Shown one piece after another: positions 20,730-62,959 of a stretch of 64,000 nt of DNA (position 1 is the first letter of the stretch; the number at the start of each line of letters is the position of its first letter). Origin of the DNA: Sideroxydans lithotrophicus ES-1 (GTDB taxonomy: Bacteria > Pseudomonadota > Gammaproteobacteria > Burkholderiales > Gallionellaceae); contig NC_013959.1 in assembly GCF_000025705.1 (NCBI RefSeq), positions 484,001 to 548,000 of the forward strand, given 5' to 3'. The notes under the pieces are model-generated. The model was not told the DNA's origin and ran no database searches. It saw only the letters and a list, made by a program, of their open reading frames with translations. The position numbers and the translations under genes are program-made.

Positions 20730-20764
20730 GGGTTGGATATTGTAAAAATCAAAAACAAAAATTA

Positions 20765-20975
20765 GCCACAGAGTACACAGAGTACACAGAGAAAGTATGT
20801 ACCGTCATTCCGGCGCAGGCCGGAATCCAGCTTGTCAAAAACCGGCGCGCTTTGCGCGCCACTGGATGTCGGCTTGGCCGAAGGTCAGTTTATCCTGAGC
20901 CTGTCGAAGGGTCGGTATGACGGGGTTCGCAGTGTTAGTTCAGGTTTTCTCTGTGATCTCAGTGTCCTCTGTGGC
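20765..20975. mobile_element. MITE-like element between gspE and gspF
   Basis: Thirty-base terminal inverted repeats, 20765-20794 and 20946-20975, match at 26 of 30 positions; both start GCCACAGAG and end CACAGAGAAA when read inward. Inside are a second inverted pair (CCGTCAT near 20801 and ATGACGG near 20918), a CATTCCGGCGC...GCCGGAATCC palindrome, and a half unit of the gspH repeat. No coding sequence is evident. The nesting suggests a composite of small repeats. Confidence 0.75.
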
Positions 20976-20998
20976 AAACAGGTTCTGGGTTTTACGAA

Positions 20999-22489
20999 TC
21001 AATCCCGCGTCACGCGGATCACTTCTTCCAGCGAGGTATCCCCCGAAACCACCCAGCGCATGCCATCGTCACGCAGGTTCAGCATCCCATTCTTCATCGC
21101 ATAGTCGCGCAAGTGCTGCTCGCTTGCGCGCGAGTGGATCATGCTGCGCAGCGAGTCATCCACTTCCAGCAACTCATAGATGCCGGTGCGGCCGCGATAG
21201 CCGGTCTGGTTGCAATTGGCGCAGCCGGCCGGGCGGTAGATCACTGTCGGCTTACCGTAGCGTGCGAGCAACGCCAGTTCCGCTTCGTCCGGTGCATAAG
21301 CCTCGCGACAATCCGGGCACAGGCGGCGCACCAGCCGTTGCGCTAGCACGCCGACGATGCTGGAAGAGAGCAGGAAGGGTTCCACGCCCATGTCGGTGAG
21401 GCGGGTGACGGCACTGACGGTATCGTTGGTGTGCAACGTGGCGAGTACCAGGTGGCCGGTGAGGCTGGACTGCACTGCGATCTGCGCGGTCTCGAGGTCG
21501 CGGATCTCGCCGATCATGATCACGTCCGGGTCCTGGCGCAGGATGGCGCGCAGGGCTCGCGCAAAGCTCATGTCGATGCGCGGGTTCACCTGGGTCTGGC
21601 TGATGCCGTCGAGGTCGTATTCCACCGGGTCTTCCACCGTCATCACGTTGGTGACGGTCGCGTCGATGCACGACAACGCCGCATACAGGGTAGTGGTCTT
21701 GCCTGAACCGGTCGGCCCGGTGACCAGCACGATGCCGTGCGGCTGGTTGGTGAGCCGCATCATGGCTTCAAGAGCGGCCGCACTCATGCCTAGTCTGGTG
21801 AGGTCGAGGCGTCCCGCTTCCTTGTCGAGGAGCCTCATGACTACGCGCTCGCCATGCCCTGTGGGCAACGTCGAGACGCGCACATCTACGGGGCGACCTG
21901 CCAGACGCAAGGCGATGCGGCCGTCCTGCGGCAGGCGCTTTTCGGCGATGTCGAGATCGGCCATGACCTTGATGCGCGACACCAACGCGGCATGCAGTGC
22001 GCGGTGCGGCTCGGCGATATCCTTCAGGGTGCCGTCGAGACGGAAGCGCACCACCGAGCGTGTCTCGAATGGCTCGATGTGGATGTCGGAAGCGTTGTCG
22101 CGCACGGCCTGGGCCAGCAGCGCATTGATCATGCGGATGACCGGCGCGTCGTTCTCCGATTCGAGCAGGTCGGCGGATCTGGGCAGGTCGTGCAGCAGCA
22201 TGGACAGGTCCATGTCCTGCTCGGCATCGTCGAGCAGCGTGGCGGTGGATTCATCGGCCTGCGAATAGGCACCGCTCAGGATGCGCTCGAACTCTTCCGT
22301 ATCGACCAGCGTGGCGTCGAGCGGCAACGCGAGCTGGCGCATCACTTCGGCAATGGCTTCCGGCTTCGCATCGCGGCGCACGGCAAGTACCGCGCGTTCA
22401 TCGCAATCGGTCAGCACCACGCCTTGCGTCCTGGCGAAGGTGTAGGGCAGGCGGCGCGCAGCGCGGCGATTGATCGCGGTCTGGCTCAC
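20999..22489 (-). CDS. gspE: Type II secretion ATPase E
   Basis: 496 residues. An N-terminal GspE domain (about 1-130) is followed by the ATPase: Walker A GPTGSGKTTTLYAAL, Asp box VEDPVEY, Walker B-like DVIMIGEIRD, His box TGHLVLATLHTN, and a four-cysteine zinc finger LCPDC...CANCNQTGYRGR. It powers pseudopilus assembly at the cytoplasmic face through GspL. The start is a GTG overlapping the gspD stop. A second PilB/GspE-type ATPase with a GAF domain lies at 58139. Confidence 0.97.
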   Translation of the reverse strand: MSQTAINRRAARRLPYTFARTQGVVLTDCDERAVLAVRRDAKPEAIAEVMRQLALPLDATLVDTEEFERILSGAYSQADESTATLLDDAEQDMDLSMLLHDLPRSADLLESENDAPVIRMINALLAQAVRDNASDIHIEPFETRSVVRFRLDGTLKDIAEPHRALHAALVSRIKVMADLDIAEKRLPQDGRIALRLAGRPVDVRVSTLPTGHGERVVMRLLDKEAGRLDLTRLGMSAAALEAMMRLTNQPHGIVLVTGPTGSGKTTTLYAALSCIDATVTNVMTVEDPVEYDLDGISQTQVNPRIDMSFARALRAILRQDPDVIMIGEIRDLETAQIAVQSSLTGHLVLATLHTNDTVSAVTRLTDMGVEPFLLSSSIVGVLAQRLVRRLCPDCREAYAPDEAELALLARYGKPTVIYRPAGCANCNQTGYRGRTGIYELLEVDDSLRSMIHSRASEQHLRDYAMKNGMLNLRDDGMRWVVSGDTSLEEVIRVTRD

Positions 22490-24558
22490 GGCTGCGGGAG
22501 TCGATCGGGGGGAGACGCTGCGACCGGTGCGCTGGCGGATTGGGTCGGTGCGGCTGCAGGTGCGCTCGCGGCTTCGGTAGAACTTGCAGCAGAGACCGGC
22601 TTTTCCGGCAGGGGCGGCAGCGATTTGTCCTTGTCGTCGTTCGGTAATATCCAGTGGTCTGGCATGCGCGCGTCCTCGCGCTTCTTGTTCATCTGTTCGT
22701 AAAAGTTGTCGGTGAGCTGCTGGTAGCTGTTCTGCTGATACATGATGTAGGGGCGGATGAACACCATCAGGTTGGTCTTGGTGTGCTGCCGTGTGTCGTA
22801 GCGGAACAGGCTGCCGAGAATGGGAATGTCGCCGAGCAGCGGTGTCTTGCTCTGCACATCGTTGACCGAGTCCTGGATCAAACCGCCCAGCACCACGATC
22901 TGGTTGTCGTCCACCAGGATGTTGGATTCGATGGAGCGTTTGTTCGTGATCAGGCCCGAGGTCGAGGAGGATGAGGAAGGAAGCACGCTCGACACTTCCT
23001 GGTAGATCTGCAGCTTCACCGTGCCGCCCTGCATGATCTGCGGCTTGATCTTCAGCGTCAGGCCGACGTCCTTGCGTTCGATGGTCTGGAACGGTGTGGC
23101 GGTGGTGGCAGAACCAGTCTGCGCGTACTGGCCGGTGATGAAGGGGACGTTCTGGCCGACCACGATCTTGGCCTCTTCGTTGTCCAGGGTCATCAGATTG
23201 GGTTCGGACAGGATGTTGGCGTTGGTGTCCGTTTCTAGCGCACGCGCCAGCATGCCGAGATTGAGCACGGTACCGACACCGGGGATGGTGGTGGTGCCGT
23301 TCACGATGCCGATGTTCAGCCCCTGGTTCACCGTACTCAGGTTATTTGCCGCATCGATGATGTTGTTGCCGCTGGCGACGCTGCCGAAGTTGGTGCCGCC
23401 GATGATGTGTGCGCCGCTCTTGGATGCACCCACCAGATTCTGCCACTGCACGCCGAACTCGGCAGCCTTGTCTGCAGTCACCTCGACGATCAGCGCTTCC
23501 ACGAATATCTGCGGGCGGCGCACATCCAGTTTGTCGATCACGGAACGGAGGTTGTTATAGATCGGTTCCGAGGCGGTGACGATGAGCGCGTTGGAAGAGG
23601 GGTCGGCCTGGATCATGCCGGTGCTGGATGTTGCGACACCGGCTGACTGCGGCACAGTGCTCGGTGCAGCGGGCGGGGCCGTCTCGCCACTCAACACCGA
23701 GCGCAGGGTCTGTGCGAGTTTGGTCGCATCGGCATTTTTCAGTTGCACTACATGGATATTGCCGGGTGTGTTGGCAGCGCTGTCCAGTTTGGTGACCAAT
23801 TCCTTGACGCGGGCGATGCGGCCGGGGTTGCCCGAGCGCAGCAGCAGTCCGTTGGTGCGACTGTCTGCCAGCAGCACGAAACGCTGGTTGTCGTCGCCGC
23901 CGGATTGGGAAGCTGCCGCCTCGGGCATCAGGCGATTGATGATGTTGGCGAGATCGACCGCGGAAGCGTGTTTGACGGGAATGACGATAGGCGCATCCGC
24001 GCTGGGCTGGTCGATGGAGTCGATGAGCTTGTCGATACGCCTGACGCTGCTGGCATAGTCGGTGACCACCAGCGCATTGCTGGCAGGATAGGCGACCACC
24101 ACGCTGTTCGGCGAGATCATCGGACGCACGACGTTGACCAGTTGCGAAGCAGATTCGTATTTCAGCACGAACACATGGGTGACCAGCTTGTCGCCGCGGC
24201 CCTGTGCCAGCGAATCGATATGCTGTTTCGCTTCCGCCTCGGGAATGATCTGGGTCACGCCATTGGATTCCACTGCCGCATAGCCCTGCAGGCGCAGGGC
24301 CGAGAGCAGGATGTCGTAGCCCAGCGCGGGCGAGACTGGGGTGGCGGAAACGATATTGATGGTGCCTTTCACGCGCGGATCGACGAGGAAATTCTTCTTG
24401 GAGATCTGCGAGATGGCGCGGATGACTTCCTGGATGTCGGCATTGACGAAATTCAGCGTGACCAGTTCGTCTTCCTTCTTTTCCGCATGGCAGGGTGCCG
24501 CGACGAAGATCGCCAGGCTGAATATCAGCAATGAGCGCAGCGCGATACTGTTGATCAA
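22486..24558 (-). CDS. gspD: Type II secretion secretin D
   Basis: 690 residues: signal peptide ending in CHAEKK, N0 domain (TLNFVNADIQEVIRAIS), repeated N1-N3 domains (about 110-380) and the C-terminal secretin barrel with VPFITGQYAQTG and the VVLGGLI signature. It forms the outer-membrane gate. The last 50 residues are rich in Pro, Ala and Ser. No lipobox, so targeting may need a pilotin or C-terminal S-domain. Overlaps gspC and gspE by four bases. Confidence 0.96.
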   Translation of the reverse strand: MINSIALRSLLIFSLAIFVAAPCHAEKKEDELVTLNFVNADIQEVIRAISQISKKNFLVDPRVKGTINIVSATPVSPALGYDILLSALRLQGYAAVESNGVTQIIPEAEAKQHIDSLAQGRGDKLVTHVFVLKYESASQLVNVVRPMISPNSVVVAYPASNALVVTDYASSVRRIDKLIDSIDQPSADAPIVIPVKHASAVDLANIINRLMPEAAASQSGGDDNQRFVLLADSRTNGLLLRSGNPGRIARVKELVTKLDSAANTPGNIHVVQLKNADATKLAQTLRSVLSGETAPPAAPSTVPQSAGVATSSTGMIQADPSSNALIVTASEPIYNNLRSVIDKLDVRRPQIFVEALIVEVTADKAAEFGVQWQNLVGASKSGAHIIGGTNFGSVASGNNIIDAANNLSTVNQGLNIGIVNGTTTIPGVGTVLNLGMLARALETDTNANILSEPNLMTLDNEEAKIVVGQNVPFITGQYAQTGSATTATPFQTIERKDVGLTLKIKPQIMQGGTVKLQIYQEVSSVLPSSSSSTSGLITNKRSIESNILVDDNQIVVLGGLIQDSVNDVQSKTPLLGDIPILGSLFRYDTRQHTKTNLMVFIRPYIMYQQNSYQQLTDNFYEQMNKKREDARMPDHWILPNDDKDKSLPPLPEKPVSAASSTEAASAPAAAPTQSASAPVAASPPDRLPQP

Positions 24559-49706: not shown

Positions 49707-49770
49707 TGAAAATTGTTTTAGTATTCGCCCCTGTGTGCTCAGGTGTCGAGTGAAAATGGGCAGGGCGAAC

Positions 49771-52287
49771 ATGAAAAAATCATTTTGGAAGACGGATTGG
49801 TTCACCGCTTTGCTGATCGCATTGGTGTTCCTGTTTGGTGCCAGAAGTGATTTGATTCAAAGCCTGGAACGCAAGGCTTATGACTGGGGCGTGCTGGCTT
49901 CGTCGCGCGCTCCCAGCGACAAGATCGCGGTCATCGCCATCGACGACCAGAGTATCGCCAACCTCGGACGCTGGCCCTGGCCGCGCGCGATCCAGGGAAA
50001 AATGCTGGACATCCTGGCTGAGGGACATGCCAAAGTGGTCGGCAACACCGCATTCTTCTTCGAGCCGCAAGTCGATGCAGGGCTGGATTACATCAACAAG
50101 ATCGGCGCCATCCTCGAAAACTCTTCTTTGAAGCACAGCAGTCCAGCAGAATGGGCCCAACTGGACGCGTTGATGCAGGATGCAATCCGGCATCTGGATA
50201 ACGATCAGCAATTGGCCGCAAGTATGCTCAAGGCCAACAATGTGCTGCTGGGTATGTTCTTCGAATTGGGCGAGCCGCAAGGCAAACCGGATAACCCGCT
50301 TCCCGACTACATCCTGAAAGAGAATCTGACCAACGTTCAGGGTGGCGAGGATTCCGCGCTGCCGATTCCTTCGCTGGGGGTGCAGGTTCCGATTCCGGTG
50401 CTTGGAACGAAGGCTTTGGCTGTCGGCCATCTCAATGTCACGCCGGATGTGGATGGCGCTGTGCGAACCGAACCGTTGGTGATCGGCTATTTCGACCAAT
50501 ATTATCCCTCTCTCTCGTTGTTGCTGGCGGCGAAGAGTCTCAATCTCGAACCCAAAGACATCAAAGTCACATTAGGCCAGGGCGTCAAGGTCGGGAACTT
50601 GAGCATTGCAACCGATTCGGCATTGCGCATGCACACATTTTTTTACGGTGACCGTGACGGAAAACCGGCCTTCCCGGTCGATTCGTTTTATGACGTGCTG
50701 AGCGGCAAGATCCCGGCGGAGAAATACCGCGACAAGATCGTGCTGATAGGGGCGACAGCTGCCGGAGTGGGAGCTTCGCAAGTGACGCCGATCTCAGCCG
50801 GGATGGCGCCGGTGCTGACGCTGGCGCATTCGGTCTCCAGCATCCTCAAGCAGGACTTCTTCGTCACGCCGAGCTGGGCCTTCGCCGCCGAAAGTGCGGT
50901 ATTCCTGATGGTTTCCCTCTACCTGATTTTGCTGGTGCCGCGTCTGAGCGCGGGGCTGGCAGCGGCTATCACCGGCGGTCTGTTCGTGTTGTTGCTGGCG
51001 GCTCATTTCATCTTGATGACGACGCAGGGGATGTGGCTGCAATTGATGTTGCCTGCTGCGTTATTGCTGGTCGGCCATCTGCTGCTGACGACCAAACGCT
51101 TCCTGATGACGGAAAAGGGCAAGATCAAATCCGATGCTGATTCTGCGGAGAGCAACCGCATGCTGGGTTTGGCGTTTCAGGGGCAAGGCCAGTTGGATAT
51201 GGCATTCGACAAGTTCCGCAAGGTGCCGCTGGACGACAGCCTGATGGACGTGTTGTATAACCTGGGACTGGATTTCGAGCGCAAGCGCCAGTTCAACAAG
51301 GCCGAGTCGGTATTCAGGTACATGGCCGACCACAACCCGAAATTCCGCGATCTGGAAGCACGTACAGCCCAGTCCAGGGCTATGGCCGAAACCATCATAC
51401 TTGGTGGTTCTTCTGGGCGGAGCAACGACAGCACGATGAAACTGGACCAGGTCGGACTGGCCAAGCCGATGCTGGGACGCTACGAGATAGAAAAAGAGTT
51501 GGGTAAGGGGGCCATGGGGGTGGTGTATCTGGGCAAGGACCCGAAGATCAGCCGGGTTGTCGCGATCAAGACGATGGCGCTGGCGCAGGAATTCGAGGCG
51601 GACGAGCTGGAAGATGTCAAAGCCCGCTTCTTCCGCGAGGCCGAGACGGCAGGACGCCTGAACCATCCCAACATCGTCACCATGTACGATGCTGGCGAAG
51701 AACACGACCTTGCCTACATCGCAATGGAATTCCTCAAGGGTAAGGATCTGGTGGCGTATACCAAGCAACCCAATCTGCTGCCGCTGCCGAAAGTATTGAG
51801 CATCGTTGCGCGGGTTGCGGATGCACTGGGTTATGCCCATGGCCTGAACGTGGTGCACCGTGATATCAAGCCGGCCAACATCATGTACGACCCGGAATCC
51901 GACACCGTGAAGGTCACCGACTTCGGTATCGCGCGCATCACCGATTCATCCAAGACCAAAACCGGCATGGTGCTGGGTACGCCATCTTATATGTCGCCGG
52001 AGCAGTTGTCCGGCGCCAAGATAGAAGGGCATTCGGACTTGTTCTCGCTGGGTGTGAGCCTGTACCAACTGGCGTGTGGTAAGCTCCCGTTCGCAGGAGA
52101 TTCCATGGCGCAGTTGATGTTCCGCATTGCCAACGAGCCGCATGCGGACATCCTGAGTGTCAATCCTGATTTGCCGCCATGCGTGGTTGCCATCATCAAC
52201 AAGGCATTGGCGAAGAAGATCGAAGATCGCTACGAGAGCGGCGGCGCAATGGCTGAAGCGATACGGCAGTGTGCGGCCAGCCTGTGA
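49771..52287 (+). CDS. CHASE2 domain Ser/Thr protein kinase
   Basis: 838 residues: a membrane helix (about 10-25), a large extracytoplasmic CHASE2 sensor (about 30-370), three membrane helices (about 375-450), a TPR-like linker (about 465-540) and a Hanks-type kinase domain (about 571-830). Catalytic features are intact: glycine loop ELGKGAMGVVYLG, VAIK lysine, HRDIKPANIMYD and DFGIARI, and activation segment GTPSYMSPEQ. It should phosphorylate proteins such as the FHA protein two genes downstream. Start is the ATG before KKSFWKTDW; earlier in-frame starts exist. Confidence 0.93.
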   Translation: MKKSFWKTDWFTALLIALVFLFGARSDLIQSLERKAYDWGVLASSRAPSDKIAVIAIDDQSIANLGRWPWPRAIQGKMLDILAEGHAKVVGNTAFFFEPQVDAGLDYINKIGAILENSSLKHSSPAEWAQLDALMQDAIRHLDNDQQLAASMLKANNVLLGMFFELGEPQGKPDNPLPDYILKENLTNVQGGEDSALPIPSLGVQVPIPVLGTKALAVGHLNVTPDVDGAVRTEPLVIGYFDQYYPSLSLLLAAKSLNLEPKDIKVTLGQGVKVGNLSIATDSALRMHTFFYGDRDGKPAFPVDSFYDVLSGKIPAEKYRDKIVLIGATAAGVGASQVTPISAGMAPVLTLAHSVSSILKQDFFVTPSWAFAAESAVFLMVSLYLILLVPRLSAGLAAAITGGLFVLLLAAHFILMTTQGMWLQLMLPAALLLVGHLLLTTKRFLMTEKGKIKSDADSAESNRMLGLAFQGQGQLDMAFDKFRKVPLDDSLMDVLYNLGLDFERKRQFNKAESVFRYMADHNPKFRDLEARTAQSRAMAETIILGGSSGRSNDSTMKLDQVGLAKPMLGRYEIEKELGKGAMGVVYLGKDPKISRVVAIKTMALAQEFEADELEDVKARFFREAETAGRLNHPNIVTMYDAGEEHDLAYIAMEFLKGKDLVAYTKQPNLLPLPKVLSIVARVADALGYAHGLNVVHRDIKPANIMYDPESDTVKVTDFGIARITDSSKTKTGMVLGTPSYMSPEQLSGAKIEGHSDLFSLGVSLYQLACGKLPFAGDSMAQLMFRIANEPHADILSVNPDLPPCVVAIINKALAKKIEDRYESGGAMAEAIRQCAASL

Positions 52288-52334
52288 TAGAGGCATAAGA
52301 ATAGATAACGAGAGCACATTTTCAGGGGTGGTAC

Positions 52335-53159
52335 GTGGATATACAAGATGCGCTTGAAATAGTCAGCCAGACCAACCCTGGGATGGTGCGCTCGCATAAC
52401 GAGGACAGCGTCACCTACGATGCGGAACTCGGATTGGTGGTGCTGGCAGACGGTATGGGCGGCTATAATGCTGGCGAAGTGGCAAGCGGAATCGCTGTCT
52501 CGGTGCTATCCAGCGAAGTGCGCCACCATCTTGAGAACGCGCGTCCGGAAGATATGGATGGCACCGGCGAAGAGTTGGGTGTGACTCTGTTGCGCGACAA
52601 TGTGAAGAAGGCCAACTTGTCCATCTTCCGTGCTGCGCAGAGTCAGCCGCAATATGCCGGGATGGGAACGACCATCGTTACGGCCTTATTCTATGACGAC
52701 CGTGTCGCGGTGGCTCACGTTGGCGATTCGCGCATGTACCGTTTGCGCGGAGAAGAGTTCGAATGCGTCACTCGTGACCATTCGCTGCTGCAAGAACAAA
52801 TTGACAGCGGTTTGATCAGCAAAGAAGATGCGCGGCTGTCCAAGAACAAGAATCTGGTGACGCGTGCGGTTGGGATCGACGCCGAGGTGGATCCGGAGAC
52901 TCACGTCCATGAGGTCCAGGTCGGAGATATATATCTGTTCTGTTCTGATGGACTGAACGATATGGTCGAGGATGAAGATATCGGCATGACAGTGCAAATG
53001 CTGCAGAGCAATTTGCAGTTGGCCGCGACGCAACTGATTCAACTGGCTAATGACAATGGCGGGCGAGATAACGTTTCGGTCATTCTGGTCAAGGTGAAGG
53101 GGCGTTATGCAGCCCCTCGCGGGTGGTGGGAGAAGTTGCGTTCCTGGTTCGGAAACTGA
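52335..53159 (+). CDS. PP2C-type Ser/Thr phosphatase
   Basis: 274 residues. The metal-site and fold motifs are all there: RSHNEDS, LADGMGGYNAGEVAS, HVGDSRMYRLR, FCSDGLNDM and GGRDNVSVI. A GTG at 52335 is the start, after AGGGGTG. It would reverse the action of the kinase just upstream. Short gap (47 bases) to the kinase and 37 bases to the FHA gene. Confidence 0.96.
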   Translation: MDIQDALEIVSQTNPGMVRSHNEDSVTYDAELGLVVLADGMGGYNAGEVASGIAVSVLSSEVRHHLENARPEDMDGTGEELGVTLLRDNVKKANLSIFRAAQSQPQYAGMGTTIVTALFYDDRVAVAHVGDSRMYRLRGEEFECVTRDHSLLQEQIDSGLISKEDARLSKNKNLVTRAVGIDAEVDPETHVHEVQVGDIYLFCSDGLNDMVEDEDIGMTVQMLQSNLQLAATQLIQLANDNGGRDNVSVILVKVKGRYAAPRGWWEKLRSWFGN

Positions 53160-53196
53160 GATAGCAAGACAAGAATTAACTACGAGGATTGATGAT

Positions 53197-53937
53197 ATGC
53201 CGGCTAAATTGATACTCAGCATGGATGGTACGGTGCTGAAAGAATATCCGCTGAACAAGGAACGGACCACGATAGGCCGCAAACCGCACAACGATATCGT
53301 GATCGATAACCTTGCGGTGAGCAGCGAGCATGCTGCCATCGTCACTATTCTGAACGATTCTTTCCTGGAGGACCTGGATAGCACCAACGGTCTGTCCGTC
53401 AACGGCACTCCGACCAAGAAGCACTTCTTGCAGAACAATGACCTGATCGAGATCGGCAAGTACAAGCTGAAATACCTGAATGATCAGCCGACCCAGACTT
53501 CAGCCGCTGATTTTGAGAAAACCATGGTGTTGCGGGCTCCGGTGAAGGTCAGCCACGGCGAAGCTGCTGCGAAATCGCCGTTGGACGTGACGGTGACCCG
53601 CAAGGCCGAAGCTACCGGGCAGTTCAACGCTACCAGTAGCGGTATGACGACCGAAGCGGCGAGCGCGCAGACTCCGGCAGCGGTGGTGCAGATATTGAAC
53701 GGGCCCAATGCTGGCAAAGAGCTGGAGCTGGTCAAGAGCCTGACTACATTGGGCAAGCCGGGCGTGCAAGTGGCTGTGCTGGCACGTCGTCCTCACGGCT
53801 ACTTCATTACCCACGTGGAGGGCGGCAGTTTTCCTACAGTGAACGGATCGTCCATCGGTGAACAGCCGCATCAATTGAGGGACCATGACCTTATCGAGTT
53901 GGCTGGAGTAAAAATGGAGTTCTACTTCAAGACCTGA
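53197..53937 (+). CDS. FHA domain protein with a degenerate second FHA domain
   Basis: 246 residues. The first FHA domain (about 1-90) keeps the phosphothreonine-binding pattern GR (TTIGRKPHNDI), SSEHA and DSTNGLSVNG. A 70-residue Ala/Thr-rich linker contains possible phosphorylation sites (KTMVLRAP resembles a kinase target TxxxL). The second domain (about 160-246) has the fold but lacks the GR and SxxH residues. It probably reads or receives phosphorylation from the CHASE2 kinase. Start is ATG 53197 after GAGG. Confidence 0.92.
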   Translation: MPAKLILSMDGTVLKEYPLNKERTTIGRKPHNDIVIDNLAVSSEHAAIVTILNDSFLEDLDSTNGLSVNGTPTKKHFLQNNDLIEIGKYKLKYLNDQPTQTSAADFEKTMVLRAPVKVSHGEAAAKSPLDVTVTRKAEATGQFNATSSGMTTEAASAQTPAAVVQILNGPNAGKELELVKSLTTLGKPGVQVAVLARRPHGYFITHVEGGSFPTVNGSSIGEQPHQLRDHDLIELAGVKMEFYFKT

Positions 53938-53993
53938 TTACCCAAAGTGACCGGTCAGGGCGCAGTTCGATGCTGTGAAAGATGGGGTGGTAA

Positions 53994-56225
53994 GTGAAGA
54001 AGCACGCACTTCTTATTGCGCTCGGTATGTCGCTCGTCCTTTTGTTTATGGGCGATGCGGCCAGGTTCTACCGCCTCGGCTTTGTTCAGTTCATCGACGC
54101 CAAGCTATATGACTACCGTTTGTTGCTCACCTTGCCAAAGAAGGCGGACGATCGCATCGTCATCCTGGACATCGATGAAAAGAGTCTGAAAGAAGAGGGG
54201 CGCTGGCCCTGGGGGCGCAACAAGATGGCGGTGATGATGGACGAATTATTCGACCATTATGGCGTCGCGGTCGTTGGCTTTGACGTGGTGTTCGCGGAGA
54301 AGGACAACAGTTCGGGTCTTAATGTGCTGCAAGATTTGGGGCGCAGTCAGTTCAAGGGTGTGGCACAGTTCCAGTCTGTGCTGGCCCAGATCAAGCCCCA
54401 TCTGGAATATGACAAGCTCTTTGCGGAAAAGATAAAGAATCGGAACGTGGTGCTGGGATATTATTTCAGCAACAGCGAACGGGGCCACGACAAGAGCAGG
54501 TCAGGAGTGTTGCCGGAGCCGGTTTTTCCGGCAGGAACATTCAAGGGGAGGCCGATCTCCTTCATGCAATGGGACAGTTACGGCGCAAATCTGCCTGAGT
54601 TGCAGAGCAGTGCGGCACTGGCTGGTCACTTCAATCCGGTTGTGGATTTCGATGGCGTAGTGCGCCGTATACCCATGATCGTCGAGTACGACGGCGCGTA
54701 TTATGAATCCCTGTCGTTGGCCGTTGTGCGTGCTGCGCTGGGAATGCCCAAGTTGCTGCCTGGTTATGCTGCCGGAAAAGACAAAAACTATGGCGGGCTG
54801 GAGTGGCTGACGCTGCAGTCGGCGCAGGGTGATCTGCGCATTCCGGTGGATGCCGAAGTCAGTGCATTGGTGCCATACCGCGGAGCGCGCGGCACTTTCC
54901 GCTACATTTCTGCCACGGACGTCCTGCATGAAAGGATTCCGAAGGCGGATTTGCAAAACAGGATCGTATTGGTGGGGACTTCGGCGCCGGGCTTGATGGA
55001 TATGCGCTCCACGCCTGTCGGCGAAGTCTATCCCGGGGTGGAGGTTCACGCCAACATGATCAGCGGCATGCTCGATCAGGACCTCAAACAGAATCCACCT
55101 TATGTGCTTGGGGCGAACGTGCTGATGTTGCTGCTGGTGGGAGTGATATTGGCGCTCCTGCTGCCTTTGCTGAGTCCAGTCTATGGGACGTTGTTATCGG
55201 CGGGTCTGCTGGCGTTTGAGGTGCTCGTCAATGGATACTTGTGGGAGTATGGCAACATTGCATTGCCGCTGGCTGGCGGCTTGATCATGGTCTTTGCGCT
55301 GTTCGCGTTGAATATGACCTATGGTTATTTCACGACCGAACGTACCAAACGCCAGATCACCAGTTTGTTCGGTCAGTATGTGCCAAGCGAAGTCGTGGAC
55401 GAGATGAGCAAGAATCCTGAGCAGGTCTCGATGGAGGGTGAGAGCCGTGAAATGACCATCCTGTTCACCGATGTGCGAGGTTTCACCACGATCTCCGAGG
55501 GGCTGGAACCCCGAGAGTTGTCGCAGTTGATGAATGAGTTCCTGACACCGCTTTCGCGGGTGGTCTACAGCCACCGCGGCACGATAGATAAATACATGGG
55601 CGACTGCATCATGGCATTCTGGGGGGCGCCGTTGCCCGACGTACGCCATGCTTACCATGCTGTGCTTGCCGGCCTGGAGATGCAGCGGAAGTTGCTGGAT
55701 CTGCAGCCTTCCTTCAGGGAACGAGGATGGCCGGAGATTCGCATCGGTGTCGGCATCAATACCGGCCGTGTCAGTGTGGGTAACATGGGGTCTGAAGTGC
55801 GTGTGGCATATACCGTAATGGGAGATGCGGTGAATCTGGCATCGCGGCTGGAAGGAATCACCAAGCAATATGGTGCTGGAGTGGTGGTGGGAGAGGTGAC
55901 CAAAGAAGCAACGCCAGAATTTGTCTTTCGCGAACTTGATCTGGTACGCGTCAAAGGCAAGGACAAGCCGGTTGCGATCTTCGAGCCGCTGGGTTTGTCG
56001 GGAGAGGTCGAGCCGGCAGTGCTGGAAGAGATCAGGCTTTTCCAGCAGATGCTTCGGCTGTACCGCAAACAGGAGTGGGACAAGGCTGAACTACAGCTGT
56101 TTAACTTGTCGAGGCTGTCACCTCAGACAAAGTTGTATGAGGTGTACTCCGAGCGCGTTGCCTATTACCGCAACAATCCGCCCGGAGAGAATTGGGATGG
56201 CGTGTTCGTCTTCAAGACGAAATAG
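53994..56225 (+). CDS. CHASE2 domain adenylate cyclase
   Basis: 743 residues: membrane helix (about 5-25), CHASE2 sensor (about 35-335), three membrane helices (about 350-430) and a class III cyclase domain (about 485-665). Metal-binding aspartates (FTDVRGFT and GDCIMAFWG), the substrate lysine (DKYMGD) and the adenine-type aspartate (GDAVNLASRLE) are present, favouring cAMP over cGMP. A short tail of 65 residues follows. The start is GTG at 53994. The same sensor type as the kinase suggests both see related extracellular cues. Confidence 0.94.
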   Translation: MKKHALLIALGMSLVLLFMGDAARFYRLGFVQFIDAKLYDYRLLLTLPKKADDRIVILDIDEKSLKEEGRWPWGRNKMAVMMDELFDHYGVAVVGFDVVFAEKDNSSGLNVLQDLGRSQFKGVAQFQSVLAQIKPHLEYDKLFAEKIKNRNVVLGYYFSNSERGHDKSRSGVLPEPVFPAGTFKGRPISFMQWDSYGANLPELQSSAALAGHFNPVVDFDGVVRRIPMIVEYDGAYYESLSLAVVRAALGMPKLLPGYAAGKDKNYGGLEWLTLQSAQGDLRIPVDAEVSALVPYRGARGTFRYISATDVLHERIPKADLQNRIVLVGTSAPGLMDMRSTPVGEVYPGVEVHANMISGMLDQDLKQNPPYVLGANVLMLLLVGVILALLLPLLSPVYGTLLSAGLLAFEVLVNGYLWEYGNIALPLAGGLIMVFALFALNMTYGYFTTERTKRQITSLFGQYVPSEVVDEMSKNPEQVSMEGESREMTILFTDVRGFTTISEGLEPRELSQLMNEFLTPLSRVVYSHRGTIDKYMGDCIMAFWGAPLPDVRHAYHAVLAGLEMQRKLLDLQPSFRERGWPEIRIGVGINTGRVSVGNMGSEVRVAYTVMGDAVNLASRLEGITKQYGAGVVVGEVTKEATPEFVFRELDLVRVKGKDKPVAIFEPLGLSGEVEPAVLEEIRLFQQMLRLYRKQEWDKAELQLFNLSRLSPQTKLYEVYSERVAYYRNNPPGENWDGVFVFKTK

Positions 56226-56251
56226 GGATATTTGCGGCAGGAATACTAAAG

Positions 56252-57016
56252 ATGAGACTCAGAATATTGGGATGTAGCGGGGGGATAGGGGGAAATCTGC
56301 GGACCACCTCGATGCTGCTCGATCACGATGTGCTGATCGATGCGGGCACGGGTATCGGCGACCTGAGTTTGGCCGAGATGTGCGTGATCGATCATGTCTT
56401 TGTGACGCACTCGCATCTCGATCATATCGCTTGCCTGCCTTTGCTGGTGGACAGCGTGGGTTTCATGCGCGACCAGCCCCTGGTCATCCATGCCACCGAC
56501 GAGACGCTGGACATACTCAGGCAACATGTCTTCAATTGGGAGATATGGCCGGACTTTACGGAGATCCCGAGTTTGCACCAGCCTATCCTGCGATATGAAC
56601 GCATCGTGCTGGGCGAAACAGTGGACATGGGGGGGCGCAAGATCACACCATTGCCGGCAAACCACGTGGTTCCGGCGGTCGGCTATCAGATCGATAGTGG
56701 CAAGACGAGTCTGGTGTTCACCGGTGATACCACCACATGCGATGCATTATGGGAGGAGGTCAATCGTATCCGCAACCTGGAATACCTGATCGTCGAGACG
56801 GCATTTTCCAATGCCGAAAAAGAACTGGCCGTCGTATCCAAGCATCTTTGCCCCTCATTGCTGGCGGAAGAGCTGTGCAAACTGAAGCTCAATCCCAAAA
56901 TATATATCACTCACCTGAAACCCGGCGAGATCGAACTGACCATGCAGGAAATCAGCGATTGTGTCGGGAACTTCGTTCCGAAGATGCTGCAAAACGGGCA
57001 GATATTCGAATTCTAG
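56252..57016 (+). CDS. Metallo-beta-lactamase-fold phosphodiesterase, class II cAMP PDE-like
   Basis: 254 residues with the metal motif THSHLDHI near residue 52, further histidine NHVVPAVGY and aspartate FTGDTTTCDALW, and a closing ITHLKPGE. Layout and length match class II cyclic-nucleotide phosphodiesterases (CpdP/PDE1 type). Placed right after an adenylate cyclase, it would hydrolyse cAMP. Other MBL-fold hydrolases cannot be ruled out from sequence alone. Confidence 0.85.
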   Translation: MRLRILGCSGGIGGNLRTTSMLLDHDVLIDAGTGIGDLSLAEMCVIDHVFVTHSHLDHIACLPLLVDSVGFMRDQPLVIHATDETLDILRQHVFNWEIWPDFTEIPSLHQPILRYERIVLGETVDMGGRKITPLPANHVVPAVGYQIDSGKTSLVFTGDTTTCDALWEEVNRIRNLEYLIVETAFSNAEKELAVVSKHLCPSLLAEELCKLKLNPKIYITHLKPGEIELTMQEISDCVGNFVPKMLQNGQIFEF

Positions 57017-57034
57017 AGAGCAGACCAAGTCATC

Positions 57035-58111
57035 ATGCAAGATATTTTGGACATCAGGGTGCTCGCGTCATTGGAACCGATTTCATCGTTCAGTCCGGCC
57101 CGTTTGCGCGAATTGCTCGACTATTGCCATGTGGAAACTGTGGCGCAGGGCAACGACCCATTCAAGGATCACCCGCCGACCGGGCAATCTGTCTATTTGT
57201 TGCGGGGCGAACTTGAAGTGGTGTACGAGGATGATAATCGCGTGCTGATCCGGTCCGGTTCCGAATGGGCACGCCATCCTATCGGCAAGCGGCAGCCGAG
57301 CATCCGCATGTCGCAGGCGCTCAGCAATGTGCAGTTGTTGCGCGTGGACGACGACCTTCTGGATCGCATGGTGACCTGGGACCAGTTTGCCTATCACGAA
57401 GATGCAAGACCGGCGTCGATGAAAGAGGGGCCGGATCATGCCTTGAAAAAGTTGCTTCATTCCGGCATGTTCAGCGCGGAGAACTTGAGCAACAGTCCTT
57501 TCGCCCATTTGCCTTCGGCCAACATCGGAGAGTTGCTCAATCGCATCGAGGCCATTGCGGTGTGGGACAGGGATGTCATCATCCGCGAAGGCGACGAGGG
57601 CGACTATTACTACCTGATCGAAAGTGGCAGGGCACAGGTGACGCGTCTGGTCGGTGGGGCGAATCTGGTGCTGGCCGAACTCAAGGCTGGCGATGTGTTC
57701 GGAGAAGAGGCACTGATCTCCGATTCCAAACGCAATGCTACCGTGACGATGAAAAGCAACGGGGTGTTGCTGCGTTTGAAAAAACAGGACTTCATGGAGC
57801 TGATGCAGGAACCATTGCTGCACCACATCAGCTACCAGGACGCAAAGCAAAAGGTGGCTCAAGGTGCGATATGGCTGGACGTTCGCCATCCGCCGGAATA
57901 CCGTTACGATAAATTGCCGGGTGCCATCAATGTCCCGCTCAATGACATTCGCAATGCCATCGGTGTGTTGAGCAAGGCGACGACTTACGTCGCGTATTGC
58001 CAAAGCGGCCGCCGTAGTGCTGCCGCCGCTTTCATCCTGGCGCAGGCAGGATACGATGTATATGTTTTGGAAAATGGTTTGTGGGCTGTGCCCAAGGCAC
58101 AGCAACAATAG
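57035..58111 (+). CDS. cNMP-binding protein with rhodanese domain
   Basis: 358 residues: a degenerate N-terminal cNMP-like domain (about 10-125), a canonical cyclic-nucleotide-binding domain (about 155-265) with the phosphate cassette GDVFGEEALISDSKRNATV, and a C-terminal rhodanese domain (about 268-350) with active-site loop CQSGRRSAAAA. No DNA-binding part, so it acts by protein contact or by rhodanese chemistry. Nineteen bases after the PDE-like gene. Confidence 0.93.
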   Translation: MQDILDIRVLASLEPISSFSPARLRELLDYCHVETVAQGNDPFKDHPPTGQSVYLLRGELEVVYEDDNRVLIRSGSEWARHPIGKRQPSIRMSQALSNVQLLRVDDDLLDRMVTWDQFAYHEDARPASMKEGPDHALKKLLHSGMFSAENLSNSPFAHLPSANIGELLNRIEAIAVWDRDVIIREGDEGDYYYLIESGRAQVTRLVGGANLVLAELKAGDVFGEEALISDSKRNATVTMKSNGVLLRLKKQDFMELMQEPLLHHISYQDAKQKVAQGAIWLDVRHPPEYRYDKLPGAINVPLNDIRNAIGVLSKATTYVAYCQSGRRSAAAAFILAQAGYDVYVLENGLWAVPKAQQQ

Positions 58112-58138
58112 CAGTTGAAAGGCTGAGGAGAAAAGAGC

Positions 58139-60532
58139 ATGGCCAGTCCGGTGCAAGGCAATATGAACGAGATGGGGTTGCGGTTGGAGTTCACCAAGAA
58201 TCTCAACCATGTGACCAACAAGATTCACGCGACCAGCAATATCGACGAGATCATGCTGGATGTCAGCAAAGATATCTGCACGCTGTTCAATGCGGACAGG
58301 CTGACGATCTATGTGGTAGGCGAGGATAAAGCGTCGCTGATCTCCAAGGTCAAGACCGGATTGAATTCGTTCAAGGATCTCAAGCTGCCGATCGCCGAAC
58401 AGAGCATCGCCGGTTATGCCGCCTTCCACAAGAAGATGCTCAATCTCAAGGATGTCTACGACGAGCATGAGCTTGCATCTTACAGTTCCACTTTGCGTTT
58501 CTTGCAGGATGTGGACCGGCGCACAGGCTATCGCACCAAGCAGATGCTGGTGGCCCCCATCGTTGATGTGGAAAATGGCGACCTGATCGGGGTGATGCAG
58601 GTCATCAACAACAAGGCGGGCATCCCTTTTCCGTCAATGGTGGAAGAAGGCGCGCGCGAACTGGCGCAGACCCTGGCTGTTGCACTCAAGCAGCGGCAGC
58701 AACAGGCCAGCACGGTCAAGACAAAATACGATTACCTTGTTTCCGATGCGGTGATGTCGGCAGCAGAATTCGAGCTGGCAACGCGCACCGCAAGGCGCAA
58801 AGGCATAGATGTAGAGGATGTGTTGCTGGACGAATTCCAGGTGAAGCCCGAGGCTTTGGGCAAAGCACTGTCCAGTTTCTTCGGTGTGCCTTATGAGCCA
58901 TACAAGTCGGATCGGATCAAGCCAGCCGAGTTGCTGCGCAACCTGAAACGCGAATATGTGGAAAGCAGCCACTGGGTGCCGGTGGACGACACGCCGGAAG
59001 GGGTGGTCATCCTGACCACAGATCCTGAGCGGATCCAGGCTTCGCGCGTGGTCAACAACATCTTTCCCAAGAATCGTCTGGTTTACAAGGTCTGCACCCA
59101 ACGCGAGTTCAAGGCCACGCTGGACTTGTTCTATGGCGGCGGAGGCGGCGGGGTAGGCGAAGTCACCGGCAGCTTTGAAGATCTGGGCTCCATGGACGAT
59201 TTGCTGACTTCCTTGGGCGGTGGCGATGAAGAAGATGCAGGGGCGAACCAGGATGATGTCAGCGCGGCAGCGGACAACGAACTGGTCAAGCTGGTCAACA
59301 AGATCATCATTGACGCCTACAAGATGGGGGCGTCGGATATCCATATCGAACCGCAGCCGGGCAAGGCCAAGACATTGGTGAGACTGCGCAAGGACGGTTC
59401 GCTGATGAACTACATCGAAGTGCCGGCAACCTATCGCAACGCCATGATCACGCGCCTCAAGATCATGTGCGATCTGGACATCTCCGAAAAGCGCAAGCCA
59501 CAGGACGGCAAGATCAAGTTCAAGAAATATGGCCCTTTGGATATCGAGCTGCGTGTGGCGACCATTCCTTCGCAGGGTGGTGTGGAAGACGTGGTGATGC
59601 GTATCCTGGCGTCCGGCGAACCCATACCGCTGGATAACATGGGGTTCTCGGTACGCAATCTCGAGCTGGTGAAAAAGACCGTCAGCAAGCCGTACGGTCT
59701 GTTCTTCGTGTGCGGCCCGACCGGTTCCGGTAAGACCACCACGTTGCACTCCATCCTGAAACATATCAACACACCCGATACCAAGATATGGACTGCTGAA
59801 GACCCGGTGGAAATCACCCAGAAAGGTCTGCGCCAGGTGCAGGTCAACAAGAAGGCCGGGCTGGATTTCGCTGCGGTGATGCGCTCCTTCCTGCGTGCCG
59901 ACCCGGATGTGATCATGGTCGGCGAAATGCGCGACAAGGAAACAGTCTCTACCGGCATCGAGGCTTCATTGACCGGCCACTTGGTGTTCGCCACCCTGCA
60001 CACCAACAGCGCACCTGAATCCATCATCCGTCTGCTCGACATGGGTATGGACCCGTTCAACTTCGCCGATGCCTTGCTCGGCATCCTGGCGCAACGTCTG
60101 GCCAAGCGTTTGTGCAAGGATTGCAAGAAAGCCCACATCGCCTCGCAGGAGGAGATCAAGTCCTTGTTGACCGAGTATGCGGCGGAGCTCATGAATACCG
60201 ATACCTGGAAAAAAGACCCGAACTCTGCCTACAAGACGCTATATGCCGAGTGGGTCAAGCTGTTCGGCGATGACAAAGGCCAGATCACGCTATATGAGAA
60301 AGTGGGCTGCGAGAAATGTTCCGGCACCGGATACCGCGGTCGCGTCGGTCTGCACGAGTTGCTGATCGGCACCGACAGAGTGAAGAAAGCCATTCAGGAG
60401 CACGCACGGGTCGCGGAACTCTTTGCCATTGCGCTGGAAGAAGGTATGCGTACCCTGAAACAGGACGGCATCGAAAAGGTGCTCAGCGGCATCACCGACA
60501 TCCATCAAGTGCGCGCCGTCTGCATCAAGTAA
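58139..60532 (+). CDS. GAF domain fused to a PilB/GspE-type secretion ATPase
   Basis: 797 residues. A GAF domain (about 28-195) resembles those of cyclic-nucleotide phosphodiesterases and CyaB cyclases (TGYRTKQMLVAPI, LIGVMQVINNKAG). A T2SSE_N-type domain (about 210-330) follows, then an ATPase: Walker A GPTGSGKTTTLHSIL, Asp box AEDPVEI, DVIMVGEMRD, TGHLVFATLHTN, and a four-Cys zinc motif (CKDC, CEKCSGTGYRGR). All catalytic parts are intact. It differs from the window's own gspE and lies before a pilin gene, so it is probably a ligand-gated pilus or pseudopilus motor. Confidence 0.93.
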   Translation: MASPVQGNMNEMGLRLEFTKNLNHVTNKIHATSNIDEIMLDVSKDICTLFNADRLTIYVVGEDKASLISKVKTGLNSFKDLKLPIAEQSIAGYAAFHKKMLNLKDVYDEHELASYSSTLRFLQDVDRRTGYRTKQMLVAPIVDVENGDLIGVMQVINNKAGIPFPSMVEEGARELAQTLAVALKQRQQQASTVKTKYDYLVSDAVMSAAEFELATRTARRKGIDVEDVLLDEFQVKPEALGKALSSFFGVPYEPYKSDRIKPAELLRNLKREYVESSHWVPVDDTPEGVVILTTDPERIQASRVVNNIFPKNRLVYKVCTQREFKATLDLFYGGGGGGVGEVTGSFEDLGSMDDLLTSLGGGDEEDAGANQDDVSAAADNELVKLVNKIIIDAYKMGASDIHIEPQPGKAKTLVRLRKDGSLMNYIEVPATYRNAMITRLKIMCDLDISEKRKPQDGKIKFKKYGPLDIELRVATIPSQGGVEDVVMRILASGEPIPLDNMGFSVRNLELVKKTVSKPYGLFFVCGPTGSGKTTTLHSILKHINTPDTKIWTAEDPVEITQKGLRQVQVNKKAGLDFAAVMRSFLRADPDVIMVGEMRDKETVSTGIEASLTGHLVFATLHTNSAPESIIRLLDMGMDPFNFADALLGILAQRLAKRLCKDCKKAHIASQEEIKSLLTEYAAELMNTDTWKKDPNSAYKTLYAEWVKLFGDDKGQITLYEKVGCEKCSGTGYRGRVGLHELLIGTDRVKKAIQEHARVAELFAIALEEGMRTLKQDGIEKVLSGITDIHQVRAVCIK

Positions 60533-60542
60533 CGGGGATATA

Positions 60543-62177
60543 GTGGATACTGCCAAGCTTAAAGCCTACATGGCGCAAGAACACGAACAGCGCGCCATGC
60601 TGGAAAGCCTGCTCAATCGTCTCAGCGACCTCAATGAGATCGGTGCGGCATTGTCCAGTGAGAGAGATATCAACCACCTGCTGGAAAGTATCCTGGTCGC
60701 TGCCAAGAGGATCACCAATGCCGATGCGGGCACGCTCTATCTGGTCGATGCCGAGAAACAGGTGTTGACCTTCGAGATATTGCACAACGATTCGCTCAAC
60801 ATACGTATGGGCGGTACCTCGGGCAACCCGATTCCGTTCTATCCCATCGCGCTATATCACGATGGCAAGCCGAATCTGGCGATGGTGGTGAGTTATTCCG
60901 TGTTGCGCGGAGAGACGGTCAACATCCCCGATGCCTATATCGCCGAAGGCTTCGATTTTTCCGGCACGAAGAATTTCGACTCAAAGACCGGTTATCAGTC
61001 GCGTTCCTTCCTGGCCGTGCCGTTGCGCAACCACGAGCAGGAGATCATCGGGGTGCTGCAGCTCATCAACGCGATCGATGCGACGACCGGAGGGGTCAAG
61101 CAGTTCTCCAAGGATGATCAGCAACTGCTCGAATCGCTGGCATCGCAGGCTGCCATCGCGCTGAGTAACCGCCGCCTCATCCAGCAGCTGGAAGTGCTGT
61201 TCGAGTCCCTGATCAGTCTCATCAACACTGCCATCGATGATAAATCTCCCTATACCGGCGGACACTGCGAGCGCGTGCCGGCACTGACCATGATGCTGGC
61301 CGAAGCGGCTAATCGTGCAAAAACAGGGACATTGAAAGATTTCAACCTGACCGACAAAGACCGGTACGAGTTGAAGATCGCCGGACTGCTGCATGATTGC
61401 GGCAAGATCACCACGCCGGTGCATGTGGTGGACAAGTCCACCAAGCTGCAGACCATCTATGATCGTATTCATTTGATCGACACACGTTTCGAAGTGCTCA
61501 AGCGCGATGCCGAGATCGAAATGTTCAAGGGGGGCAAGACGAATGCCGAATATGAGGAAGCTGTCCACAGGCTTGACGAAGATCGTGAATTCCTGCGCCA
61601 CTGCAATATTGGATCGGAAAAGATGCAGGATGGTGATATCGATCGGGTAAAACTGATCGCCAAATACCAGTGGCACAACGAGCGTGGCGAGCAGGCGGAT
61701 TTTCTGAACGCAGAAGAGATCGAGAACCTTACCATCCGTGCCGGCACGCTCACTGCGGCGGAGCGCGAGATCATCAATCACCATATCAATGTCACCATCA
61801 AGATGCTGGAGGCGCTGCCTTGGCCGAACCATCTCAAGCGTGTGCCTGAATACGCTGGGGGGCATCACGAGCGCATGGACGGCAAAGGTTATCCCAAAGG
61901 GCTGACGCGGGATCAGATGTCGATACAGGCGCGGGTCATGGGTATCGCCGACATCTTCGAAGCACTGACGGCCAAAGACCGGCCCTACAAGGAAGGTAAG
62001 ACCCTTACCGAATCATTGAGCATCCTTGGTAAGTTCAAGGAGAACGGGCATATCGACCCCGATCTGTTCGATGTCTTCATCCGTGAAAAGGTCTACCTGA
62101 CCTATGCACAGCAATTCCTCAAACCGGAGCAGATCGATATGGTGGACGAACGCAGGATTCCAGGCTACATGCCTTAA
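60543..62177 (+). CDS. GAF/HD-GYP phosphodiesterase
   Basis: 544 residues: a GAF domain (about 30-210) of the same PDE-like type as the upstream ATPase, then an HD-GYP domain with LLHDCGKITTP near residue 285 and GGHHERMDGKGYPKGL near 440. About 155 residues separate HD and GYP motifs, some 90 more than in typical HD-GYP proteins, inserted after VVDKSTKL. It is likely a c-di-GMP phosphodiesterase controlled by a small molecule. Start is GTG at 60543, ten bases after the previous stop. Confidence 0.9.
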   Translation: MDTAKLKAYMAQEHEQRAMLESLLNRLSDLNEIGAALSSERDINHLLESILVAAKRITNADAGTLYLVDAEKQVLTFEILHNDSLNIRMGGTSGNPIPFYPIALYHDGKPNLAMVVSYSVLRGETVNIPDAYIAEGFDFSGTKNFDSKTGYQSRSFLAVPLRNHEQEIIGVLQLINAIDATTGGVKQFSKDDQQLLESLASQAAIALSNRRLIQQLEVLFESLISLINTAIDDKSPYTGGHCERVPALTMMLAEAANRAKTGTLKDFNLTDKDRYELKIAGLLHDCGKITTPVHVVDKSTKLQTIYDRIHLIDTRFEVLKRDAEIEMFKGGKTNAEYEEAVHRLDEDREFLRHCNIGSEKMQDGDIDRVKLIAKYQWHNERGEQADFLNAEEIENLTIRAGTLTAAEREIINHHINVTIKMLEALPWPNHLKRVPEYAGGHHERMDGKGYPKGLTRDQMSIQARVMGIADIFEALTAKDRPYKEGKTLTESLSILGKFKENGHIDPDLFDVFIREKVYLTYAQQFLKPEQIDMVDERRIPGYMP

Positions 62178-62419: not shown

Positions 62420-62959
62420 ATGAAACGAATTCAAAAAGGTTTCACCCTGATCGAGCTGATGATCGTGGTTGCGATCATCGGCATCCTGGCGGCGGTGGCG
62501 ATCCCTGCATATCAGGACTATGTGGTCAAGGCCAAGCTGTCCAAAGTGACTTCCACCATCGACCCTCTGAAGTTGGCTTTGGTGCAGTACTATCAGGAAA
62601 ACGGCAGTTTCCCCAGCACACCTACTGCTAACGCGCTGCCTGCAGCAACAGCAGCTCCTGGCGATGTCTGGTACTCTTTGGGCCTTGCATTTACTCCCAC
62701 CGTTCCGGGCGAGCTGCAGCAGATTTCTCTGGATAACGGCGGTGTCATCACGCTGCATTTCGCTGCGGCTGGCATCAAGACCGGTATCGATGGTACCTAT
62801 ATCGGCATCACCCCGATCGCGGGCGGTACGGGCGTTCAGTTCTTCTATAGCACCAGCGCAACTGACACAAACAGCATCAACCTGCTCAAGAAATCGTTCA
62901 TTAACGCTGGAATCGCTGCACCAGCCACGTTGCCTTCTTTAGCCGGCACTGCGCTGTAA
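62420..62959 (+). CDS. Type IV pilin-like major subunit
   Basis: 179 residues. Prepilin leader MKRIQKG^[22 protein letters not shown] with Glu at +5, then the alpha1 helix ([18 protein letters not shown]). The head is Gly/Thr/Ser/Ala-rich and contains no cysteine pair, so the disulfide loop of PilA is missing. AAGGAG stands nine bases before the ATG. A sigma-54 promoter precedes it and a strong terminator follows it. With the ATPase upstream it may form a pilus or pseudopilus. Confidence 0.93.

Follow-up and report, generated by a model that had tools for sequence, protein, structure and literature searches.

For the assembly ATPases of type IV pili, a 2024 review of PilB regulation describes cAMP as acting via Vfr-dependent transcription and c-di-GMP as acting via the MshEN domain; the word GAF does not occur in it (PMC11656802). 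The effects of cAMP on type IV pili known so far are transcriptional and exerted through Vfr/Crp, and c-di-GMP is the messenger described to bind the motors directly (PMC11656802). The c-di-GMP motif of MshEN, RLGxx(LVI)(LVI)xxG(LVI)(LVI)xxxxLxxxLxxQ, occurs twice in the domain (PMC5013675). Acinetobacter baylyi uses TfpB, a second and phylogenetically distinct extension motor, beside PilB for one pilus (PMC8213720). Among GAF domains that bind cyclic nucleotides, the cAMP contacts in CyaB2 GAF-B are R291, T293, I308, T309 (backbone), D356 and N359 (PMC4411481), and in PDE2 GAF-B any single change in the NKFDE motif abolishes cGMP binding, i.e., every residue is needed (PMC11977230). Our searches of the open-access literature returned no study of a pilus or secretion ATPase that carries a GAF domain, and the function of this architecture appears to be undescribed there; domain databases may well contain it.

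Architecture of the ATPase and its gene neighborhood

The ATPase considered here is encoded in the window, i.e., the whole stretch of 64,000 nucleotides that was analysed, the closest named relatives of which are Sideroxyarcus, Sideroxydans and other Gallionellaceae. The host genome has 3.0 Mb and forms one contig. A first-pass annotation had proposed that an N-terminal GAF domain and an intact GspE/PilB ATPase reside in the same polypeptide, and this proved correct (Table 1). Walker A (GPTGSGKTT), Walker B (DPDVIMVGEMRD) and the CxxC pairs are intact and almost all of these residues are invariant among 41 sequences. NCBIfam models recognize the protein as PilB/GspE-type, and its scores remain below the cut-offs for the equivalogs PilB (TIGR02538, 475.6 of 675.65), GspE (TIGR02533, 435.8 of 630.25) and TfpB (NF053534, 381.9 of 850). 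The AlphaFold model of the full-length protein (pLDDT 60, pTM 0.33) is too poor to show coupling between GAF domain and ATPase.

Table 1. Features of the ATPase and of its surroundings in the window. Occurrence refers to the neighborhoods of 80 loci of the order; ranges stem from two score thresholds.
Feature	Position	Strand	Basis or remark	Occurrence
CHASE2 + Ser/Thr protein kinase	49735..52287	+	Pfam; cluster start	44/80
PP2C-type protein phosphatase	52335..53159	+	Pfam	59/80
FHA-domain protein	53107..53937	+	Pfam	58/80
CHASE2 sensor + class III adenylate cyclase	53994..56225	+	Pfam, PDB match, catalytic residues	45-47/80
Metallo-beta-lactamase-fold hydrolase, class II cAMP phosphodiesterase-like	56192..57016, start probably 56252	+	PDEase_II, Lactamase_B_2	68-70/80
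cNMP-binding + rhodanese protein	57035..58111	+	Pfam	13/80
GAF-MshEN (degenerate)-T2SSE assembly ATPase, 797 aa	58139..60532	+	One open frame, no stops; Pfam, NCBIfam	
GAF domain, residues 35-183	58241..58687	+	Pfam PF01590, 40 bits, cut-off 22.4; AF2 model; profile search	
TGYRT of the GAF domain, residues 129-133	58523-58537			
IGVMQVINN of the GAF domain, residues 150-158	58586-58612			
MshEN-type N domain, residues about 194-336	58718..59146	+	Pfam PF05157 at 248-336, 40.2 bits, cut-off 23.1	
T2SSE (PilB/GspE) ATPase domain, residues 378-791	59270..60511	+	PF00437, 379.7 bits	
Walker A, residues 526-534	59714-59740			
GAF + HD-GYP c-di-GMP phosphodiesterase-type protein	60543..62177	+	10 bp after ATPase gene	59/80
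Type IV pilin (PF00114)	62420..62959	+	Pfam; directly downstream of cluster	43/80
T2SS GspE	20999-22489		Over its curated cut-off; one of five other ATPases	

The region 49735-62177 constitutes a tightly spaced cluster that unites genes for protein phosphorylation, cAMP and c-di-GMP around a single ATPase, includes two CHASE2 sensors (those of the kinase and the cyclase) and is in large part conserved across the order. The cyclase and phosphodiesterase-like genes that had been noticed nearby are real, have retained their catalytic residues and belong to the cluster in most relatives within the order. At 54 of the 68 loci with a phosphodiesterase-like gene it is located at most about 430 bp from the ATPase gene, and at nearly all of the remaining ones it lies at a distance of about 1.1-1.4 kb with an extra gene, e.g., one for a cNMP-binding protein, in between. 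Frequent occurrence without cyclic-nucleotide genes nearby, named at the outset as an argument against cAMP as ligand, is the situation at 10 of the 80 loci of the order and at most loci outside of it, and not at the other 70, where the phosphodiesterase-like gene or the cyclase (either) is found near the ATPase.

The hydrolase scores 50.5 bits with PF02112 (cut-off 23.7) and features the HxHLDH metal site; its class II assignment is to be read as a likeness, as the match spans only positions 83-144 of the 340 of the profile and RNase Z-type models score too, albeit below cut-off. Its best match in the PDB is with a class II cAMP phosphodiesterase, yeast PDE1 (4ojv); the similarity is confined to a short stretch in which both share HVFNxxIWPD, and this sequence as well as the metal ligands are conserved. 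In the cyclase, the catalytic Asp pair, Lys, Asn and Arg (D493, D537, K533, N614 and R618) are present in 44/44 sequences; the best PDB matches are adenylate cyclases and the Lys expected of these enzymes is retained. The catalytic motifs of the HD-GYP protein are conserved as well. Its GAF domain is a relative of that of the ATPase, has no Arg for the base contact, with A at the position of R54, and reads TGYQS.

In addition to the GAF-bearing ATPase, the genome encodes five full-length PilB/GspE-like ATPases, namely the T2SS GspE, a separate TfpB that scores over its cut-off, one protein adjoining an MshL-like secretin, and two more. PilT/PilU-family ATPases are present, PilO is represented by one strong match, and only two PF00114 pilins were found in the genome, one being that listed in Table 1. 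A cluster of type II secretion genes, located at 19506-24558 of the minus strand, comprises GspF, GspE and GspD, each of which exceeds its curated cut-off. The possibility that the GAF-bearing protein is the ordinary GspE of type II secretion was rejected on the grounds that a separate GspE sits in this cluster within the window. As a pilin adjoins the ATPase cluster and the T2SS has its own GspE, a type IV pilus is favored as the machine that is served.

The GAF pocket and the MshEN-type domain

The two PDE/CyaB-type features pointed out by the first-pass annotation, TGYRT and IGVMQVINN, are both present, and searches of the PDB place CyaB2 first, be it with the GAF sequence from the window (5.4e-24, followed by PmGH, PDE10, PDE2 and PDE5) or with a profile built from 28 diverse family members (4.5e-38). 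Among the 20 top chains found with the profile, 19 stem from CyaB2, PDE2/5/6/10 or Lcd1 and the remaining one from PmGH; generic GAF domains appear only from 8.6e-10, after a clear gap and with partial coverage. As judged by sequence, the domain is a member of the PDE/CyaB cyclic-nucleotide subgroup. The structure prediction that had been suggested, an AF2 model of residues 1-200, exhibits the GAF fold (pLDDT 85) and has its best Foldseek matches in PmGH, CyaB2 and PDE10; since generic GAF domains such as PtsP score equally well with VIA-align, the subgroup is not decided by fold alone. The control set of other GAF domains was small and mostly HD-GYP-linked. PmGH possesses much of the signature of the ATPase GAF, which counts against the cyclic-nucleotide reading; to our knowledge, no cyclic-nucleotide ligand has been shown for it. 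In one genome (G001, loci L227, L240 and L252), frames of 782 and 902 aa, the former with tandem GAF domains, feature GAFs in which the cyclic-nucleotide signature is nearly complete and extends to NKFD[QE]; these proteins are likely close to the CyaB2 type.

Counted along the alignment, the cAMP contacts of CyaB2 GAF-B correspond to R54, T56, V71, K72, D126 and T129 of the ATPase, T129 taking the place of N359 as a Thr does in CyaB2 GAF-A and PDE10. The alignment with CyaB GAF-B called for earlier accordingly revealed conserved contacts (R54, T56, V71, D126, T129) and not a pocket devoid of all ligand-contact residues. Among 79 orthologues, R54, D126 and Q154 are invariant (79/79 each), and T56, T129 and T133 occur in 77, 76 and 75, respectively. 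The mean entropy of ten pocket positions amounts to 0.35 bits vs. 1.31 bits for the GAF domain, a value as low as this being reached by 4 of 100,000 random sets of GAF positions. R54, D126, Q154, N157 and F164 are kept in 20/20 distant relatives.

The NKFDE motif is not complete in the clade of the window, where two of its five residues are lost: N157 and F164 are invariant in the 79 orthologues and E169 is found in 54, K being replaced by N158 and D by V168 (V/A in the clade). Distant relatives retain an NKFD-like motif with K/R in 18/20 and D/E in 20/20 sequences. The two losses (58610-58642, residues 158 and 168) occur jointly in the order, as if they concerned a salt-bridge pair. Furthermore, K72, a conserved Lys at a base-contact position (77/79 orthologues, 19/20 distant relatives), differs from its counterparts T309 in CyaB2 and D439 in PDE2. 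The neighboring position 71 is V in the window protein and F/Y in distant relatives, the PDE2 residue being F438. In its sequence, the domain is thus unlike a textbook cyclic-nucleotide GAF in two features, the loss of the NKFDE K and D and the conserved K72. C47 and H30 are likewise well conserved among orthologues.

The MshEN-type domain is degenerate. A paralogue from the same genome reads RLGDLLVQQKLIS... at the c-di-GMP motif, whereas the GAF-bearing ATPase reads KYD-YLVSDAVMS... and DVEDVLLDEFQV... at the two sites, such that both motifs are absent, with RLG replaced by KYD and DVE and the Gln residues replaced as well. Because Arg, Gly and Gln are substituted in both halves throughout the family, control by c-di-GMP via this domain is unlikely, and we rejected it. 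For Xanthomonas GspE, such control through the N domain has likewise been reported as unlikely (PMC5013675).

Distribution of the family and of cyclic-nucleotide genes

A search with residues 1-367 in a sample of 300 genomes of the order yielded strong matches in 122. Profile searches (E below 1e-30) of a class-level sample of 369 genomes and a phylum-level sample of 299 returned matches in 13 and 35 genomes, respectively, both including the genome of the window and one or two more from the order. The GAF-bearing ATPases are rarer in the phylum outside the order than within it. In 78 of the 80 fetched orthologous loci of the order the three-domain architecture is encoded as a single frame. In a maximum-likelihood tree of ATPase domains, a single clade with support 100/100 unites 20 family members of the order with 20 from elsewhere, and the five other ATPases of the window's genome fall outside of it on long branches. 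One ancient fusion for the whole family is the simplest reading of the sequences. A sporadic domain fusion, chance or an assembly artefact was rejected in view of the 122 genomes, the single ATPase clade and the recurring single frames. Decayed and truncated copies also exist, i.e., a match with two TGA stops (L118, genome G061) and a frame of only 390 aa near kinase and PP2C genes (L110, genome G269). Of the original interpretation, the GAF subgroup, the pocket and the cluster have stood; what it had overlooked is that a degenerate MshEN domain is present, that the NKFDE motif is incomplete and that the protein belongs to a widespread separate family and is not a one-off fusion.

Class III cyclases are encoded in 118 of the 122 family-bearing genomes of the order vs. 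82 of 178 others (Fisher p 3e-23, a statistic that ignores phylogeny), four family-bearing genomes of the order lacking a class III cyclase match. Among distant family-bearing genomes the proportion is 26/28. At 20 distant loci, a cyclase domain within 10 kb is clear in three cases (L214, L215, L220) and weak in two, and a phosphodiesterase-like gene is present at one (L214). As for genomes without a cyclase, pocket residues are changed at L105 and L111, an anecdotal observation with L087, where the whole pocket is kept, as counterexample; genome G221 combines the absence of a class III cyclase match with a fully preserved GAF pocket. Pocket conservation is not relaxed where a linked cyclase is missing (pocket minus rest 0.22 with and 0.26 without).

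A putative cAMP-gated pilus motor and its relation to known systems

As a sensor of the cyclic-nucleotide type precedes the ATPase and genes for making and destroying cAMP are usually adjacent, cAMP may act as a switch of the pilus motor itself. In the mechanism that we propose, the CHASE2 cyclase would produce cAMP and the neighboring class II phosphodiesterase-like enzyme would destroy it. Binding of cAMP in the GAF pocket could then be relayed via the helix following the GAF domain (residues 166-195, a likely relay in the GAF model) and then the MshEN-type domain until the signal reaches the ATPase hexamer, where it would alter either the activity or the way in which the hexamer docks at the base of the pilus; the protein would serve as an accessory motor for the extension of type IV pili. 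What can be read from the sequences as such is the order of the domains, the subgroup of the GAF, the conservation of its pocket, the absence of the MshEN motifs, the unity of the family and the gene cluster; cAMP as ligand, gating of the ATPase and service to a pilus rather than to the T2SS are what we infer. We assign a probability of about one half to the reading that the protein represents a separate PilB/GspE branch and an accessory type IV pilus motor which is gated by cAMP via its GAF domain and has lost the c-di-GMP motif. The wider proposition of a widespread, undescribed branch of pilus motors, switched by cAMP via GAF, released from c-di-GMP control and equipped with its own cyclase, phosphodiesterase, kinase/phosphatase and pilin in the cluster, is put forward more tentatively, at somewhat less than even odds.

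Several observations would also fit a GAF domain that binds no small molecule at all and serves for dimerization or as a docking site for the FHA protein, the kinase/phosphatase or the GAF-HD-GYP protein: K and D of NKFDE were lost jointly in the order, the FHA, PP2C and HD-GYP genes are linked to the ATPase more often than the cyclase, and pocket residues drift in some lineages, e.g., at L105 and L111. The invariance of the polar pocket residues R54, D126 and Q154 and the far stronger conservation of the pocket compared with the remaining GAF domain render this rather unlikely. Should the pocket accommodate cGMP or another cyclic nucleotide instead of cAMP, K72 next to the base could set the specificity, given its conservation and its difference from the residues of CyaB2 and PDE2, and F/Y at position 71 of distant relatives would resemble F438 of PDE2; however, both linked enzymes point to cAMP, the cyclase by its adenylate-cyclase Lys and PDB matches and the hydrolase by its class II likeness, and we deem such a ligand clearly unlikely. 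Least probable is the sensing of an unrelated small molecule or of a redox or metal cofactor: GAF domains bind many ligands (PMC4411481) and C47 and H30 are well conserved, but in sequence the domain falls among the cyclic-nucleotide GAFs, apart from haem, bilin and other GAFs.

If gating by cAMP holds true, many environmental betaproteobacteria would possess a fast route by which cAMP acts directly on pilus assembly, and the GAF-bearing ATPase offers a concrete, testable protein. Vibrio cholerae MshE and Myxococcus xanthus PilB belong to the same ATPase family, share the MshEN-type N domain and exemplify the nucleotide control of a pilus motor proposed here; the GAF-bearing ATPase differs from both in that RLG and Gln of the two 24-residue motifs are replaced and an additional GAF domain precedes the N domain. 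Like TfpB of A. baylyi, it would supplement the canonical extension ATPase with a further one, yet it stays under the TfpB cut-off in a genome with a separate TfpB, and the report on the A. baylyi protein mentions no GAF (PMC8213720). With the GAF domains of Anabaena CyaB2 and of PDE2/5/6/10 it has the subgroup and most ligand contacts in common. It departs from these in that its GAF is single and not tandem and is joined to a pilus/secretion ATPase, where they have a cyclase or phosphodiesterase; the clade of the window also lacks K and D of NKFDE, and Lys occupies the T309/D439 position. Leptospira Lcd1 (PDB 5w10) is another bacterial GAF protein of the cAMP-binding kind, to which the ATPase GAF conforms by sequence; the output of Lcd1 is a diguanylate cyclase, that of the protein described here a pilus-type ATPase.
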